Assembly: GCA_944322975.1 (NCBI GenBank)
Contig: CALUQS010000048.1
Coordinates: forward strand, 1-64,000
DNA from: Candidatus Gastranaerophilales bacterium
GTDB lineage: Bacteria; Cyanobacteriota; Vampirovibrionia; Gastranaerophilales; Gastranaerophilaceae
Length of the DNA stretch: 64,000 bases
Reading direction: 5' to 3'
Below the pieces are notes generated by a model. It worked only from the letters and a program-made list of their open reading frames with translations. It was not told the origin of the DNA and ran no database searches. Positions 696 through 8,113 of the stretch are shown piece after piece. The position numbers and the translations under genes are program-made. Positions within the stretch are counted from its first letter, which is position 1. The number at the start of each line of letters is the position of its first letter.

Positions 696-1079
696 ATGCC
701 AACAATTGCACAATTGGTAAGAAAAGAACGTAAAAAATTAGTTGACAAAACTAAATCACCGGCTCTTACAAACTGCCCTCAAAGACGCGGCGTTTGCACA
801 AGAGTTTATACAACTACACCGAAAAAACCTAACTCAGCTTTAAGAAAAGTTGCAAGGGTTAGATTAACTAACGGTTTTGAAGTTACATCTTATATTCCGG
901 GTATCGGACACAACCTGCAGGAACACAGCGTTGTTCTTATCAGAGGCGGAAGGGTTAAAGACCTTCCGGGTGTTCGTTATCACATCGTAAGAGGCACATT
1001 AGATACTGCAGGTGTTGCAAACAGAGCACAAAGCAGATCTAAATACGGTGCTAAAAAAGCTAAAGCAGCTAAAAAATAA
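696..1079 (+). CDS. rpsL: 30S ribosomal protein S12
   Basis: Decoding-centre protein of the small ribosomal subunit. All S12 hallmarks are present in 127 residues: [21 protein letters not shown] near 31-51, [12 protein letters not shown] near 67-78, and [11 protein letters not shown] near 86-96. The two lysines whose replacement gives streptomycin resistance are both wild type (Lys44 in PKKPNS and Lys88 in RVKDLPG, counting Met1). A good AAGGAG ribosome-binding site precedes the ATG. It is followed by rpsG in the usual order. Confidence 0.98.
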
Positions 1080-1752: not shown

Positions 1753-1950
1753 TTGTTGTATTAAAGAAAAATAGTGTTTGTGTTAAACATTTTGTGTCGT
1801 CTTTAACTGTCTCAGAACAGTTTTATGAATCGATGGTTCTGTAATCCTTCTATTTGCATTAATTAACAATAATTAATGTTGTGGCAACTTTTTGTATTCT
1901 TTTGTTTTAATGTAAACAGTGAAGCAAATAAATTATGCAGATTTTTGTTT

Positions 1951-3666
1951 ATGTATGTGAATCCGCTAAATAGTACGTATAAAAACTTTTTAACTACGCC
2001 TGCCGTGGGTGTACCTGTTATAGCAGAGCAGGAACAAAAACAGCCTGCTGCAGTTAGGGTAGGTGATATTCCTTCAAACAGAAAGAATTCAACAGCCGCT
2101 GAAAACGATGAAAAAAGACACAGCAACAAAAAATTATTCGGGATAATAGGTATTTCCGTAGGTTCAGCACTGCTGCTGACTGTAATAGGTTTGTTTACAC
2201 TAAGCAAAGGTTTTTCCGGAAATATCGCAAGAAAATTAAGAAAAATATCAGACAGTGCAAGAAAAGCTATTTATGACCTGTCAACCCAGTCACAGGAACT
2301 TACGGAGTCTCAAAAAATAAAACTGAGAATTCATAAAGGAGTTCAACATTTTGCTGATGCAATGCAGGCGTCTTCTAACATTTCTGCGGTTAAAGACAGT
2401 GCTATGCTAAAATTAATGCAGACATTACATCTTCAAAAAGCAGTCAACGTTATTAATCAATTTTTCAAAAATAAATTAATTTTAAAAACAAAAAATGTTG
2501 CCTACAACGAGGCTGAATACGCTACCATAGAATTTTGCAATTACCTTGAAAAACTTGCAAAATTAAAAAACAACCCTGAACTTGCACAAAAAGCAAAACA
2601 AATTATGGCTGATTATACTGCCAATTTTTCAACGGCAAACCATGTAAAACGCTCGCAGCAAGCATGGCAAAGTATGCAAGGATTGCATTCAGAGGTTTAT
2701 AACAGGCTTTTTAAACAGAAAAAAGGCTTTTTGAAAAATCTAAAACAGTTTCGGTCTTATGTTACAACCGATATAATTGCACCGGAAAGAGGAATAGCAG
2801 AAAACAATATTACTAAAGCAAAAGCAGCTATTTCTAACAATTTGACAGATGTTAACCTGGCGATTAAAGAAGCTTTTAATAACTTAAAAATCAGCATAAA
2901 TCCGCGTAATGACAATGCTGTTGATATAGTTAAAAAGATTAACAAATTGTTAGATGAAAGCAAAAACTTAAAAGGACAGACAGAAGCCGGTCAAAGAGAG
3001 GCCCTTTTTAAAAACATAAAAGACTATTTGAACCAGCTTTCCAAAATTGCCGGACAAGATATAAAAAATCCTGATGACTATAAACTCGCTATTCAAAGAA
3101 TAGATAAATTTTACGAAATAATAAAACCTGATTTTTATAAAAAAGGACTTGCGCAAGAGGCAATAACCGATGTTAAGTTTATGTTTGAAGGGGGAGCTCT
3201 GTCAAAAGAATATAAGCTTGCCCACAAATATATGAAAAATATGAACACAAAACTAAACAATGCTATTTATCAGGAAATGAATGTTTATGAAAAAATGGCG
3301 GAATTGGCTGTAGGGTCTGCGCCGTCAGATATTATAGGTATTCTTGCACCGACTGCACTTGGCGTGGGAATGGTTGTTAAAGCAGATAACCAAGATGAAA
3401 GGATATCAAAAACGCTTACTCAGGGTGTGCCTATCTTAGGCGGTGTAGGTGTGACTTATTACGGTACTGTAAGAGGCTATACAGGTGCCAAAAACCTTAT
3501 CCTCGGTCTTGGTTCAGGTTGGCTGCTCAGTATAATTGGCACACAGGCTGACGAACTCGTAAAAAAATATCGAAATGAGCAGCATAAGCTGAAAGCTGCT
3601 TTTGAATCCTGGACAAAATTACAAAAAACACAGGAATCAAATAATAATCCCCAAAATTTAGTCTAA
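1951..3666 (+). CDS. Large coiled-coil membrane protein of unknown function
   Basis: Not recognised. The frame is open from an ATG at 1876 (596 residues). I prefer ATG 1951 (571 residues) because the upstream codons read like untranslated AT-rich sequence, but neither has a clear ribosome-binding site. After a polar N-terminus of about 60 residues comes one strong membrane helix (IIGISVGSALLLTVIGLFTL). Next are roughly 350 Lys-, Asn- and Gln-rich residues predicted to be helical or coiled coil. Two Gly-rich hydrophobic stretches (ILAPTALGVGMVV and LILGLGSGWLLSIIG) lie near the C-terminus. No signal peptide or enzymatic motif is seen. It probably spans the inner membrane, possibly as a lineage-specific protein. 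Confidence 0.6.
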   Translation: MYVNPLNSTYKNFLTTPAVGVPVIAEQEQKQPAAVRVGDIPSNRKNSTAAENDEKRHSNKKLFGIIGISVGSALLLTVIGLFTLSKGFSGNIARKLRKISDSARKAIYDLSTQSQELTESQKIKLRIHKGVQHFADAMQASSNISAVKDSAMLKLMQTLHLQKAVNVINQFFKNKLILKTKNVAYNEAEYATIEFCNYLEKLAKLKNNPELAQKAKQIMADYTANFSTANHVKRSQQAWQSMQGLHSEVYNRLFKQKKGFLKNLKQFRSYVTTDIIAPERGIAENNITKAKAAISNNLTDVNLAIKEAFNNLKISINPRNDNAVDIVKKINKLLDESKNLKGQTEAGQREALFKNIKDYLNQLSKIAGQDIKNPDDYKLAIQRIDKFYEIIKPDFYKKGLAQEAITDVKFMFEGGALSKEYKLAHKYMKNMNTKLNNAIYQEMNVYEKMAELAVGSAPSDIIGILAPTALGVGMVVKADNQDERISKTLTQGVPILGGVGVTYYGTVRGYTGAKNLILGLGSGWLLSIIGTQADELVKKYRNEQHKLKAAFESWTKLQKTQESNNNPQNLV

Positions 3667-4230: not shown

Positions 4231-4437
4231 TTAAGCGCCTGTGTTATACAAATTGTTATCCTCAAACACTTCTGTTTCGTAGTATTCGTCTGTTAACTCC
4301 TGTGAGGTAATTTTGGCATCCGCAAGCTGTTCTAAAAGCTTTGCATAATCAAGGCATTTTTTACCTTTAATGCCTTCTGTATGCATTTTTATCTCGCCGT
4401 TTGGCAAAAGTTGTATTTTTATCTTTTTTTTATCCAT
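4231..4437 (-). CDS. DUF2997 family protein
   Basis: The 68-residue protein has the DUF2997 layout. A short beta hairpin comes first (IKIQLLPNGEIKMHTEGIKG), then a conserved Cys (KKCLDYAKLLEQL), then an acidic tail. DUF2997 proteins are found mainly in cyanobacteria and commonly sit beside DUF1257/Ycf35 and AAA genes, as here. This is the last gene of the five-gene minus-strand cassette, 9 bp after the DUF1257-like gene. Function is unknown; the size and context suggest a small subunit or substrate of the complex. Confidence 0.7.
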   Translation of the reverse strand: MDKKKIKIQLLPNGEIKMHTEGIKGKKCLDYAKLLEQLADAKITSQELTDEYYETEVFEDNNLYNTGA

Positions 4438-4446
4438 ATTGCACCG

Positions 4447-4995
4447 CTAATTAATATTTATTGTAAGCATAATCGAGTTATCTTCAAGAATTTCCTCTTC
4501 ATCTATCTGCAGATTTTTCTGCGCAAGTCTTTCTTTTATTTTTAGATAACTTTCTTCCTGCGCATTCATTCCGTACTCAGAGCTTAAATCTTCAAGAATC
4601 ACAGTGTCATCGCAATTTTGTTCACATGTAACTTTCAATTTAAAAGGAGTTGATTCATCCGGTCTGAAAAAATTGAGGTGAAAATTTTCTATATCAGCCT
4701 CTACTTTATTTTTATCAACCATAAGCGTTTGTATACCGTACTCCTGCAAGGTTTTCATAAGCAGGTCTCTGTCCATAAAAACAGTGTCATATTCATTGCA
4801 TATTTTTTCTATGTTTTCTTTAGTAATATTTTGAGGAGTATTCAAGGATTCTTTTAATTGTGCATTAATTTTTGCTTTTATAGCCTCTTGTGACTCGATT
4901 AATTTCGCTTCTCTTTCAGTTTGAATTCCGTAAGATATAGAAGAAACTACAGCATACAAAAGTCCGAAAGGCAGTAATGATATAGTACAAGACAT
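4447..4995 (-). CDS. Ycf35/DUF1257-like protein with N-terminal membrane anchor
   Basis: The C-terminal 100 or so of the 182 residues resemble DUF1257 (Ycf35). They have an LLMKTLQEYGIQTL segment, and they close with SYLKIKERLAQKNLQIDEEE followed by a final strand SIMLTININ. Unlike typical Ycf35, the N-terminus is a hydrophobic helix (LLPFGLLYAVVSSISYGI, about 6-24) followed by a charged coiled coil, so it is probably tethered to the inner membrane. AAAGGA lies 8 nt before the ATG. It lies between ycf46 and the DUF2997 gene. The DUF1257 assignment is moderate because the match is by pattern only. Confidence 0.6.
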   Translation of the reverse strand: MSCTISLLPFGLLYAVVSSISYGIQTEREAKLIESQEAIKAKINAQLKESLNTPQNITKENIEKICNEYDTVFMDRDLLMKTLQEYGIQTLMVDKNKVEADIENFHLNFFRPDESTPFKLKVTCEQNCDDTVILEDLSSEYGMNAQEESYLKIKERLAQKNLQIDEEEILEDNSIMLTININ

Positions 4996-5011
4996 AAGTT
5001 AAATCCTTTCA

Positions 5012-6646
5012 TTAAAAGTCAAGAGAGCGTCCGCCGCGGGTTTTAGACACATCTTTTTGTGATGAGTTGTTTTCTATATTGATATCTTGAGTATAAGCAC
5101 TCAAATCTTCTTTTTTTGTTGCGGCAACAGCCCTAACGTTTGCCCAGGCCCTCAGCGCAAGTATCTGCTCTCTTTGAGTGGTGGACAAAGGTACAGTGTT
5201 TTTTATAGTTTTTTCTAAATCGCTGAACTCAAGCGCTCTTTTTTCAAAAAACGCTTCATAAAGTGCTGATATAACAACCTGCTCTATTTCTGCACCTATA
5301 AACCCTTCTGTCAGAGAGGCAAGCTTTTTACAAACATCGTCTGTTACCGGAACATTGCGTGCAACCTCTTTGTCTTTCAGTCTCTTTTTAAGGTGGAGTC
5401 TGAAAATCTCAACTCTTTCGTTAAAGGTAGGAATATCAACAAAGAAAATTTCATCAAAACGGCCTTTTCTCATGAGTTCCGGAGGAAGATTGTTTATGTT
5501 GTTTGCTGTTGCTATAACAAACACAGGCGCTTCTTTTTCCTGCATCCACGTTAAAAATTGACCGAATATTCTTGAGGTAACACCGCTGTCGCCTCCGGAG
5601 TTTACTCCGCTCAAGCCTTTTTCGATTTCATCTACCCACAATATCGATGGTGCAACAGCTTCTGCTGTAGCGATTGCTCTTCTCATATTTTCTTCGGAAC
5701 TGCCTACAAGACCGCTGAAAATTTTGCCTAAATCAAGTCTTAACAAAGGCAGCTGCCAGATTTCGCTCATAGCTTTTGCTGTCAAACTTTTACCGCATCC
5801 CGGAACACCTGTAATAAGCACGCCTTTTGGAGCAGGAATGCAATATTTTTTAGCGTTTTCCGACCACGAGTTTTTTCTCTTTTTAAGCCAGCTTTTGAGG
5901 TTATCCAGACCGCCTATATCTTCTATGCCAAGGTTTGTGCTTACAAATTCAAGAATACCTGTTTTTTTAATAACCTGCATTTTTTCATCCATAATTATTT
6001 TTAAATCATCGATGCTTATTGTACCGTCGTTTACCATTGCAAGAGCAAAGGCGTTCTCTGCCTCCTGCAAGGTTAGGCCTAACGCTGCTTTACAGAGTCT
6101 TTCTTTATCCTCTTCCGTCAGAGTATCTGATTTCACTTTTACGTTTTGAGAAATCATGCTGTTTAGTTTTGCGCTTATTTCTTTTAATGACGGCAGTGGA
6201 AAATTACAGATAGTAATATCTTTTTGCAATGTATCAGGAATAACCAAATCAGGCGAGATAAAGAAAACATTTTTACGCGCCTGACTTGTTTTTAGTACGC
6301 TGACAAGGTCTCTTAGTCTTCTTACAAGCTCGTAATCGCAGGAGCGGTTTTTTATCCCGAAATTTACATGCATGTCGTAAAACAAAAATACTGCATCTTT
6401 GTCGCATTTTTCAACAAATTCCAGAGCTTTTGAGGGGGTAATAGTACCCGGAACAGGCTTTTCTGTTTCTTCGTTAACAAACCCGTTAGTCTCTGTCCAG
6501 ATGTAAACTTCTCTGGGGACTTTAACAAGTTTGGGCTCTCTTACTATCTTTTTAATAAGGTTTGTGACCCTTTCTTCTTCATAGGTTGTTATGTATATGT
6601 AAGGGAACCTTGCTCTTATGAGGTTTGATAACTTTTTAACAAGCAT
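5012..6646 (-). CDS. ycf46: Ycf46-type AAA+ ATPase
   Basis: AAA+ protein of the cyanobacterial/plastid Ycf46 family. Residues 1-220 form the family's degenerate N-terminal P-loop-like domain, starting with the characteristic LIRARFPYIYITTYEEER. The active AAA module follows: Walker A GVPGCGKS (280-287), Walker B SILWVDE (334-340), sensor Asn in ATANN (380-384) and the RKGRFDEI second region of homology with arginine fingers (393-396). The C-terminal lid is at about 440-500. The length of 544 is usual. It probably remodels a protein partner; in cyanobacteria its role is still poorly defined. It overlaps the radical SAM gene by 11 bp, implying translational coupling, and has its own GGAG site. 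Confidence 0.88.
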   Translation of the reverse strand: MLVKKLSNLIRARFPYIYITTYEEERVTNLIKKIVREPKLVKVPREVYIWTETNGFVNEETEKPVPGTITPSKALEFVEKCDKDAVFLFYDMHVNFGIKNRSCDYELVRRLRDLVSVLKTSQARKNVFFISPDLVIPDTLQKDITICNFPLPSLKEISAKLNSMISQNVKVKSDTLTEEDKERLCKAALGLTLQEAENAFALAMVNDGTISIDDLKIIMDEKMQVIKKTGILEFVSTNLGIEDIGGLDNLKSWLKKRKNSWSENAKKYCIPAPKGVLITGVPGCGKSLTAKAMSEIWQLPLLRLDLGKIFSGLVGSSEENMRRAIATAEAVAPSILWVDEIEKGLSGVNSGGDSGVTSRIFGQFLTWMQEKEAPVFVIATANNINNLPPELMRKGRFDEIFFVDIPTFNERVEIFRLHLKKRLKDKEVARNVPVTDDVCKKLASLTEGFIGAEIEQVVISALYEAFFEKRALEFSDLEKTIKNTVPLSTTQREQILALRAWANVRAVAATKKEDLSAYTQDINIENNSSQKDVSKTRGGRSLDF

Positions 6647-7253
6647 AGTTATTCTCCAATGATTTATAATTACGTGTTAAATATTTTTTCAGTTTTTTAA
6701 AATCAGCCATTCCATTGACAAAAACAACGCCGTTTTCGTCAATTCTCAGCTCTACTTTATTTTTATAATGCATAATTTCAGGCAGCGAATAGCGCTCTGT
6801 CAAAAATATGTAGCGCTGGTTTTTTGACCCCACCCACGGACGGGAAAGGTCAAACTCGTTTTCGCAAAATTCACCGTCGACAAGCAGGTCAGTGTATTTT
6901 AAAAGGTTCTGTATATCTGCAGTTTCGCTGTTTTTCAATTGCTCATAGGAGTTGCCAGTAAAAGTCACAACCGAAAGCCCTGACTCTTTAACTTTTTGTG
7001 CAAGAAAAGCAAGCGCTTGGGCCTGTTCAAAAGGCTCTCCGCCAAGAAAGGTTACACCCTCAATATCTTTTTGTATTTTTATAAGTTCATAAATTTCTTC
7101 TACATCAAGCATTTTATTGGGGTTGTGCGGCCACGTGCTTTTAGCATGGCATCCGTCGCAATGGCGGGAACAGCCCTGAACCCACAGGCAAAATCTTTTG
7201 CCCGGCCCTTCTGCATTTGTTTTATTTATTATTTTAAAAACATTGATTTTCAT
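6636..7253 (-). CDS. Radical SAM 4Fe-4S activase-like protein (NrdG/PflA type)
   Basis: This short 205-residue radical SAM protein resembles glycyl-radical-enzyme activases. It has GPGKRFCLWVQGC leading into C28-x3-C32-x2-C35 for the iron-sulfur cluster, GGEP at 71-74 and a compact C-terminus. It would cleave SAM to generate a 5'-deoxyadenosyl radical. NrdG is the closest well-known relative, but no class III ribonucleotide reductase or other glycyl-radical enzyme lies nearby. It is embedded between an HhH membrane protein (1-bp overlap, TAATG) and ycf46 (11-bp overlap), so a role with the AAA system is more likely than nucleotide reduction. Confidence 0.82.
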   Translation of the reverse strand: MKINVFKIINKTNAEGPGKRFCLWVQGCSRHCDGCHAKSTWPHNPNKMLDVEEIYELIKIQKDIEGVTFLGGEPFEQAQALAFLAQKVKESGLSVVTFTGNSYEQLKNSETADIQNLLKYTDLLVDGEFCENEFDLSRPWVGSKNQRYIFLTERYSLPEIMHYKNKVELRIDENGVVFVNGMADFKKLKKYLTRNYKSLENNYAC

Positions 7254-8113
7254 TACAGGTCAATTATTCTTTCTGCTTTTGCTTTTCTGACTTTTTTAAT
7301 ATTTACTTTGTTCACACAAATTTCATCTCTCAAACGCTTTGCAAAGTGCGGTTTTATTCCCATAACAGCAATAAAGTCGTCTACTGATTTAAACGGTCTT
7401 ACGGTATCGCGGTATTTGATTATTTTTTTGGCAAGCACAATATTTATACCGCTCAATGCAGTAAGTTCAGCCTCCGATGCGTTGTTTACATCGGTAAGCC
7501 CGTCAGTAAGTTTTACAAAATTTTCTATATCTTTATTTAGTTTGCGGTTTTCTTTCTGGTCAGCAGATGCCTGTGTATATTTTTTTGCCACCTGTGATTT
7601 TGGCGGAATATTTGGATTAACAGAGGTATCAACAGATCTGGAGGAATAGACGGTCTCTGTTATTATTGCATTAGCTTTCAGCGAGTTATAAATTTCAGTA
7701 TAACGTGTACTATAGTTAAATATTTCGCACATCATGTCAAAATATTCATCAATATCCATCGGGCTGAATCTTTTTGCCGTAAGCATCATACATTTTCCGT
7801 TTTCATCGTATTCTTTGCTTATGCAAATAATCGTGTCGCCTGTTTGGTTTCTGTTAAGAGAGCAGAATTTGTTAGACAAGGTAAGGGAACCGAATATTTT
7901 TTCATACGGCTTAATATAGTTTGCAGCGGTTTTGAGGGCTGTTATTCTGCGATTTCTGCGGTTTATACGATTTATTCCCCAGGCAAAAATATTGTTTATC
8001 GGTGAATCTCCGTAATAATAATCATCACCGTAGCCTAAAAAACCGCGCCTTCGCGTTCCGCCGAGAGCCAGACCAACAATCATAACTATAATATATATTA
8101 CAAAGTAGGGCAT
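7253..8113 (-). CDS. Membrane-anchored helix-hairpin-helix (ComEA-like) protein
   Basis: The 286-residue protein begins with a membrane helix (FVIYIIVMIVGLALGG, about 4-19) followed by an Arg- and Tyr/Gly-rich linker. The middle of about 130 residues is unrecognised. Residues about 207-270 form two helix-hairpin-helix motifs of the ComEA type (DVNNASEAELTALSGI, then FKSVDDFIAVMGI). Such domains bind DNA non-specifically or mediate protein contacts. A ComEA-like DNA-uptake role is possible, but the gene leads the Ycf46 operon with TAATG coupling to the radical SAM gene, so it may instead anchor that complex to the membrane. Confidence 0.65.
   Translation of the reverse strand: MPYFVIYIIVMIVGLALGGTRRRGFLGYGDDYYYGDSPINNIFAWGINRINRRNRRITALKTAANYIKPYEKIFGSLTLSNKFCSLNRNQTGDTIICISKEYDENGKCMMLTAKRFSPMDIDEYFDMMCEIFNYSTRYTEIYNSLKANAIITETVYSSRSVDTSVNPNIPPKSQVAKKYTQASADQKENRKLNKDIENFVKLTDGLTDVNNASEAELTALSGINIVLAKKIIKYRDTVRPFKSVDDFIAVMGIKPHFAKRLRDEICVNKVNIKKVRKAKAERIIDL

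Follow-up and report, generated by a model that had tools for sequence, protein, structure and literature searches.

We analysed a 64,000-nucleotide stretch of DNA from a Candidatus Gastranaerophilales bacterium (GenBank assembly GCA_944322975.1, contig CALUQS010000048.1; hereafter the window), which carries at 4231..8113 on its minus strand a cassette of five genes encoding a helix-hairpin-helix (HhH) membrane protein, an NrdG-like radical S-adenosylmethionine (SAM) protein, a Ycf46-like AAA ATPase, a DUF1257-type protein and a DUF2997 protein. We found one C-terminal tail, R-x-[ILVF]-[DE]-hydrophobic-COOH, on both the AAA ATPase and the HhH protein; in its strict form it is restricted to cassette genes, and an initial annotation of the window does not mention it. 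Our favoured reading, to which we assign a probability of about 0.5, is that the cassette encodes a membrane-associated AAA+ machine that handles client proteins and recognises them by a terminal tag that the motor also carries.

Strict tails were counted among the distinct complete open reading frames (ORFs) of at least 60 aa in the loci collected by that stage of the analysis (n=3,782). The tail was present on 121 of them, all cassette genes (61 of the HHH class, 54 AAA and 6 other cassette genes); no ORF outside a cassette ended in it, nor did any radical SAM, DUF1257 or DUF2997 protein. A DNA-pattern search of the whole genome of the window (G000; assembly 85% complete) returned 32 sites; the AAA and HhH genes were the only tail-ended ORFs of at least 60 aa found among those with an Arg first codon and a stop as last codon. 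The ATPases end in a linker followed by RGGR-x-L-D-F, with 88% pairwise identity over the last 8 residues as compared with 23% over the preceding 25, whereas the HhH proteins end in E/G-R-x-[ILV]-D-[LIF]. The Arg and Asp of the tail are invariant in 31 of 31 HHH tails and 22 of 22 AAA tails. When 32 HhH proteins were aligned (28% mean column identity), four columns were invariant, two of which are the tail Arg and Asp. In the window the two tails read ERIIDL (7256..7273, minus strand as for all cassette features; R282 and D285 being the invariant pair) and RGGRSLDF (5015..5038). The latter is disordered in the model of the AAA monomer (predicted local distance difference test, pLDDT, below 50), as expected if the peptide binds another partner.

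Several comparisons bear on which element is shared. Cassette proteins that lack an HhH domain retain the tail (L045, L049 and L063), and in one variant of the cassette (variant 1) extra membrane proteins, likewise devoid of this domain, are still tail-ended. Paralogous variant-2 cassettes (L113, L117, L160 and L161) encode a radical SAM protein, an AAA ATPase, TPR-HhH proteins, a DUF1257 protein and a membrane Mrr-type nuclease protein. The Mrr proteins matched Mrr_cat at 5e-21 to 2e-23 and have hydrophobic N-termini in all four cassettes; three of them, together with the TPR-HhH proteins, are tail-ended (for example GRKIDW, GRTIDF, GKKLDI and GRKLDI), the Mrr protein of L117 being without a tail. 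Judged from these sequences, the shared element is the tail and not the HhH fold. Across the loci tabulated, AAA tails accompany the radical SAM and HHH genes, and outside Gastranaerophilales the strict tail was absent from all 18 AAA genes that lack both.

The gene set itself is conserved. The initial annotation had proposed an undescribed system, to be abandoned as an accidental association if ycf46 homologues in close relatives had no radical SAM and HhH genes next to them. Querying genome contigs with the AAA ATPase gave 58 loci, and gene order was scored in 44 loci (L031-L074) from Gastranaerophilales, Clostridia and Coriobacteriia. The exact HHH-rSAM-AAA-DUF1257-DUF2997 order (rSAM, radical SAM) was found in 27; the other 17 comprised five with a second HHH, one with a second DUF1257, three cut short, four with AAA-DUF1257-DUF2997 only and four with the permuted order DUF2997-HHH-rSAM-AAA-DUF1257. 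The association survived this test across Cyanobacteriota, Bacillota and Actinomycetota, and in Verrucomicrobiota without the HhH gene. In Actinomycetota all five families are adjacent on plasmids of cultured soil hosts, namely Rhodococcus aetherivorans BW2, two Paenarthrobacter strains and one Arthrobacter strain, which makes the system workable outside uncultured gut bacteria. Their AAA and HhH tails are RGGRTFEF and PGRRLEF in Rhodococcus, RGGRRIDF and GGRTLDL or RGGRQIDF and ARKLDI in Paenarthrobacter, and RGGRQIDF and SRRLDL in Arthrobacter. The five-gene order is thus far beyond chance and the association is not accidental, so that the proposal of a conserved and apparently undescribed system stands.

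The closest named relatives are metagenome-assembled genomes (MAGs) of Gastranaerophilales, non-photosynthetic relatives of cyanobacteria, which accounts for the finding of plastid-type families but no photosynthesis genes. Among 59 relatives, a strong AAA match was accompanied by a strong radical SAM match in 15 of 15 genomes, with a single radical SAM orphan (G013). There the gene lies alone beside nifU-nifS (L110:4155-7140), where several genomes of the same genus carry the cassette, and it is a probable cassette remnant. An AAA ATPase of this type is found in only 9 of 23 same-genus genomes. The genes flanking the window cassette, orf8270-orf8446-prmC, also occur in the other 21 genomes of the genus that have orf8446, with no adjoining cassette genes detected. 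DUF2997 was carried by 4 of 391 genomes in Clostridia, by 1 of 298 in Coriobacteriia and by 14 of 289 in a sample around a Verrucomicrobiales MAG. One lineage has the cassette stably placed next to the ATP synthase operon; in the window genus its neighbours are often nifU-nifS. We conclude that the cassette family spreads laterally, though it is fixed in one lineage. The window contains no tRNA that would indicate tRNA-associated insertion, and a tblastn search of phage and plasmid records with the cassette DUF1257 protein gave no match, the distant plasmid cassettes having surfaced with the AAA ATPase.

Looser matching was carried out as a blind terminus-matching scan over all variants, which was underpowered and whose p values carry no multiple-testing correction. 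It clearly supported sharing between AAA and client only in the R-x-hydrophobic-D class and a few others. At two loci in which no radical SAM gene was detected, the AAA and client ends were TRQLDL and RRQLQL (L234, p=0.028) and NSRRIA and GSRRLA (L232, p=0.008). In verrucomicrobial loci the AAA tails are SKIEL, RKLEL and RNMEF, and candidate client peptides are GRFSSLELE at a TPR N-terminus and GRFDNIELD at a rhomboid C-terminus; a PflA-like radical SAM protein is nearby (L228 and L230, with candidate ORFs in L229 and L231). Two clostridial loci (L158:8108-10049 and L159:8330-10263) encode a MiaB/RimO-like radical SAM protein, with a UPF0004 domain in the L158 type, and a fused DUF1257-DUF2997 protein; their AAA ATPases carry RQIRF or RRTIKY close to the C-terminus, and their clients have RVIRF or RRKIRF at the N-terminus. 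The clients of Paenibacillus pPPM1a end in SRVIHF and KRVIRL. Since the scan was significant for only some loci, we rank wider sharing across variants as a lead and not as a result. Large plasmids of Bacillus and Paenibacillus (L243 and L247) carry, close to a gene for a FAD-dependent thymidylate synthase, genes for an NrdG-like radical SAM protein, a client, an AAA ATPase, DUF1257 and DUF2997, with look-alike ends (AAA FDQLDF and client FSDIEFDF; AAA FEDLDL and client YADLELF). At a Lachnospiraceae AAA locus (L087:6591-12805), four neighbouring proteins share a C-terminal ESTxLNMERVSECI-like motif that is not on the ATPase.

A central feature of the favoured model is that the Ycf46-like ATPase would act as the motor and have two adaptors, the DUF1257 protein anchored in the membrane and the small DUF2997 protein. 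Clients would be recognised through a short terminal peptide; in the window cassette the HhH membrane protein bears it as its R-x-hydrophobic-[D/E]-hydrophobic tail, and in sister cassettes it is also found on TPR-HhH proteins and the membrane Mrr-type nuclease. Because the disordered C-terminus of the ATPase bears the same peptide, motor and client tails could compete for, or pass between, one receptor site. The NrdG-like protein would act on a component or client of the machine rather than on a glycyl-radical enzyme. The complex is probably located at the membrane, since the HhH and DUF1257 proteins both have N-terminal hydrophobic segments, and these segments bear out the membrane tethering proposed initially. 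The initial pairing of an AAA core and a radical SAM protein is likewise supported. We favour a docking tag read by the AAA-DUF1257-DUF2997 core because this core is common to all variants and sharing occurs without radical SAM. The tag role of the tail, the adaptor role of DUF1257 and DUF2997, remodelling by the motor and the whole radical step are inferred. More tentatively, the cassettes may represent an unrecognised class of AAA+ system whose motor shares one interchangeable terminal address peptide with an open-ended range of clients (membrane proteins, TPR proteins and nucleases); a DUF1257-DUF2997-rSAM core would read this peptide or modify it chemically, and the peptide sequence would drift jointly in motor and clients between lineages.

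Several observations weigh against a docking tag. Docking of the tail in cis was looked for in the AAA monomer model and none was seen, and an invariant Asp would be as fitting in an enzymatic target as in a docking peptide. Outside the R-x-hydrophobic-D/E class, sharing was weak, with p<0.05 at only some loci in the terminus-matching scan; L158 and L228-L231 missed this level with the expected client. Lastly, L086 and L170 have AAA, DUF1257, DUF2997 and radical SAM genes but no HhH gene and no clear tail.

Alternatively, the radical SAM protein could use the tail as its substrate, binding the C-terminal R-x-hydrophobic-D-hydrophobic peptide and modifying its Asp or an adjacent residue; the AAA complex would then present clients and be modified itself. 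Tails and radical SAM genes do co-occur in the tabulated loci, and three types of radical SAM protein (NrdG-like, PflA-like and MiaB/RimO-like) are found in loci with related tails. The closest solved relative of the cassette enzyme, pyruvate formate-lyase (PFL)-activating enzyme, binds an R-x-x-G-Y peptide of its partner, and R-x-x-D-F has the same spacing. The AAA tail RGGRxLDF also resembles the uS12 loop RGGRVKDL, in which RimO methylthiolates the Asp and which is encoded by rpsL of the window (696-1079). However, tail sharing also occurs in L232 and L234, where no radical SAM gene was detected, which favours docking, and the cassette enzyme is not RimO, as it lacks a match to the N-terminal UPF0004 domain of RimO/MiaB. 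We regard a substrate role as doubtful. The rpsL gene is among the few non-cassette ORFs that match GGR..[DE][hydrophobic]. A further proposal, that the radical SAM protein activates NrdD or another glycyl-radical enzyme with the remaining genes as helpers, draws on its NrdG/PFL-activating enzyme class; the initial annotation had suggested a genome-wide look for such a substrate. No PF01228 or PF13597 match was found in G000 or in the cassette-bearing relative G008 (assemblies 85% and 96% complete), NrdD in relatives is adjoined by a different radical SAM gene, and the NrdG cut-off was not reached. Co-occurrence thus disfavours an activase, and we consider this role highly improbable. The DNA-associated or metal-protein target that had also been suggested found no support.

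The Mrr-type nuclease, the patchy distribution and the plasmids suggest a role in defence or conflict, with the AAA/rSAM machine controlling tailed effectors such as the nuclease, an arrangement compatible with the tag model. The Mrr_cat proteins of the four variant-2 cassettes, each with a hydrophobic N-terminus, the presence of the ATPase in 9 of 23 same-genus genomes, plasmid carriage and the rarity of DUF2997 in Clostridia and Coriobacteriia are in line with such a role. In contrast, no convincing PADLOC system match was obtained, the likeness of the ATPase to IetA and of the radical SAM protein to viperin being at the superfamily level only; the cassette is stable beside the ATP synthase operon in one lineage and often lies beside nifU-nifS in the window genus; and the window cassette does not itself encode the nuclease. 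A defence or conflict role of this kind seems doubtful. The cassette could also be a housekeeping stress or quality-control machine derived from the cyanobacterial Ycf46/Ycf35 set, with the tail and the HhH protein serving membrane localisation only. DUF2997-ycf35-fed7 is a known cyanobacterial cluster that includes a ferredoxin neighbour (PMC4284462), and slr0374 (ycf46) lies in a stress operon, and EcaB carbonic anhydrase activity is reportedly lower when this gene is inactivated (PMC7496141). Yet the cassette version is patchy, laterally spread and tailed, with extra genes, and none of 48 cyanobacterial DUF2997 loci examined contained a radical SAM gene. We regard this explanation as unlikely.

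ORF calls reproduced the order, overlaps and gaps of the five genes in the initial annotation exactly to the base: the HhH and radical SAM genes overlap by 1 base and the radical SAM and AAA genes by 11 bases, followed by gaps of 16 bases before the DUF1257-type gene and 9 bases before the DUF2997 gene. The HhH membrane protein (7253..8113, 286 aa), the putative client or anchor, matched Pfam HHH_3 at 3.1e-15, is conserved in gene order and gave an AlphaFold2 model with a mean pLDDT of 81. Its layout is an N-terminal hydrophobic helix (predicted membrane helix, residues 2-25, 8039..8110), an alpha+beta middle domain for which searches of PDB and viral libraries returned no significant fold match, an (HhH)2 domain (residues 205-266, 7316..7501) and the tail. 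It had been described as a DNA-binding-type membrane protein. The HhH membrane protein stands, but the DNA-binding label is unproven because the aligned hairpins are degenerate in their glycines, reading GI[SN] and KxKPH and not the usual GxG. The best fold matches were ComEA and the non-DNA-binding PsbU; identity with the ComEA DNA receptor was rejected on the NCBIfam comE score (40.9 bits against a cut-off of 152.35).

The radical SAM protein (6636..7253, 205 aa) matched Fer4_12 at 4e-36 and Radical_SAM at 2e-8, and PFL-activating enzyme is its nearest solved structure. Its score of 111.1 bits with the NCBIfam NrdG equivalog model fell below the cut-off of 126.1, so that assignment as NrdG was rejected. 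Its CxxxCxxC motif (residues 28-35, 7149..7172; three cysteines invariant in 26 sequences) and GGEP motif are intact and invariant in homologues. Its C-terminal extension (window 6636-6780) contains a short beta-hairpin, KVELRIDENGVVFVNG, that is similar to the first one in DUF2997 (hhalign 76%, 18 columns). The AAA ATPase (5012..6646, 544 aa; Pfam AAA 1.1e-28) is nearest in sequence to Cdc48/p97-type AAA domains among solved structures. Walker A (GVPGCGKS, residues 280-287, 5786..5809; G280 and G283-S287 invariant in 30 homologues) and Walker B (DE) are intact and invariant. We class it as Ycf46-like from its AAA domain, these motifs and its DUF1257/DUF2997 linkage; the comparison was with homologues in cyanobacterial genomes (L168, about 4e-120) rather than with the named Ycf46 (Slr0374). 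The DUF1257-type protein (4447..4995, 182 aa) had no direct Pfam DUF1257 (PF06868) match up to E=0.1; hhalign nevertheless confirmed the proposed identity (96.1%, E=3.3e-9) against canonical DUF1257, a reference led by the L076 member, which itself scores 87.6 bits in Pfam. Sequence and alignments reveal an N-terminal hydrophobic segment (4927..4992) that canonical MSHF-type members lack. The DUF2997 protein (4231..4437, 68 aa) matched PF11211 at 1.9e-12 and passed the Pfam gathering score (47.3 against 24.1 bits); comparison of DUF1257 with DUF2997 gave no homology between the families. Between rpsG and the cassette, the window encodes a 596-aa protein (1876-3666) with no significant Pfam match.

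Cyanobacteria and some plastids conserve DUF1257, DUF2997 and Ycf46, for which no function has been settled. The DUF2997-DUF1257 pairing is already known, and what is new here is the tail common to the AAA and HhH proteins. We found no description of ycf46 together with radical SAM, or of a set of these five genes marked by a common terminal tag, in the open-access library searched, which does not cover most subscription journals. The cyanobacterial sets (DUF2997-ycf35-fed7; the slr0373-slr0374-slr0376 operon) have the AAA class, DUF1257 and DUF2997 in common with the cassette and a stress or redox context, but their loci pair DUF2997-DUF1257 with ferredoxin or AAA and lack the radical SAM gene, the HhH gene and the R-x-hydrophobic-D tail. 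The radical SAM protein shares fold class, CxxxCxxC and GGEP with NrdG and PFL-activating enzyme, from which it differs in its C-terminal extension, its sub-cut-off NrdG score and the lack of a detected glycyl-radical partner in two cassette genomes. A membrane helix and (HhH)2 are likewise common to ComEA and the HhH protein, whereas the extra middle domain, degenerate hairpins and almost invariant tail set the latter apart from ComEA and PsbU. Short C-terminal peptides serve as docking signals in SspB-ClpX and in the HbYX tails of PAN/p97; unlike in those systems, motor and client of the cassette bear the same peptide, and a radical SAM protein belongs to the set. The tail is a concrete, testable handle, since it allows clients to be predicted from their sequences and its receptor to be identified by peptide binding. 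Should it serve as a docking tag, it would amount to a new AAA+ client code; should it be a radical SAM substrate, to a new modification of protein C-termini.

Homologous ATPases with part of the set also occur in contractile injection loci. Ycf46-like AAA genes with DUF1257/DUF2997 or radical SAM genes lie inside such loci in a Bdellovibrionota MAG (L076:5628-12854) and on Treponema succinifaciens pTRESU01 (L241:1-11575). In contrast to the cassette, they are embedded among sheath and baseplate genes with no HhH client seen, and the Treponema ATPase ends in RKLEM.

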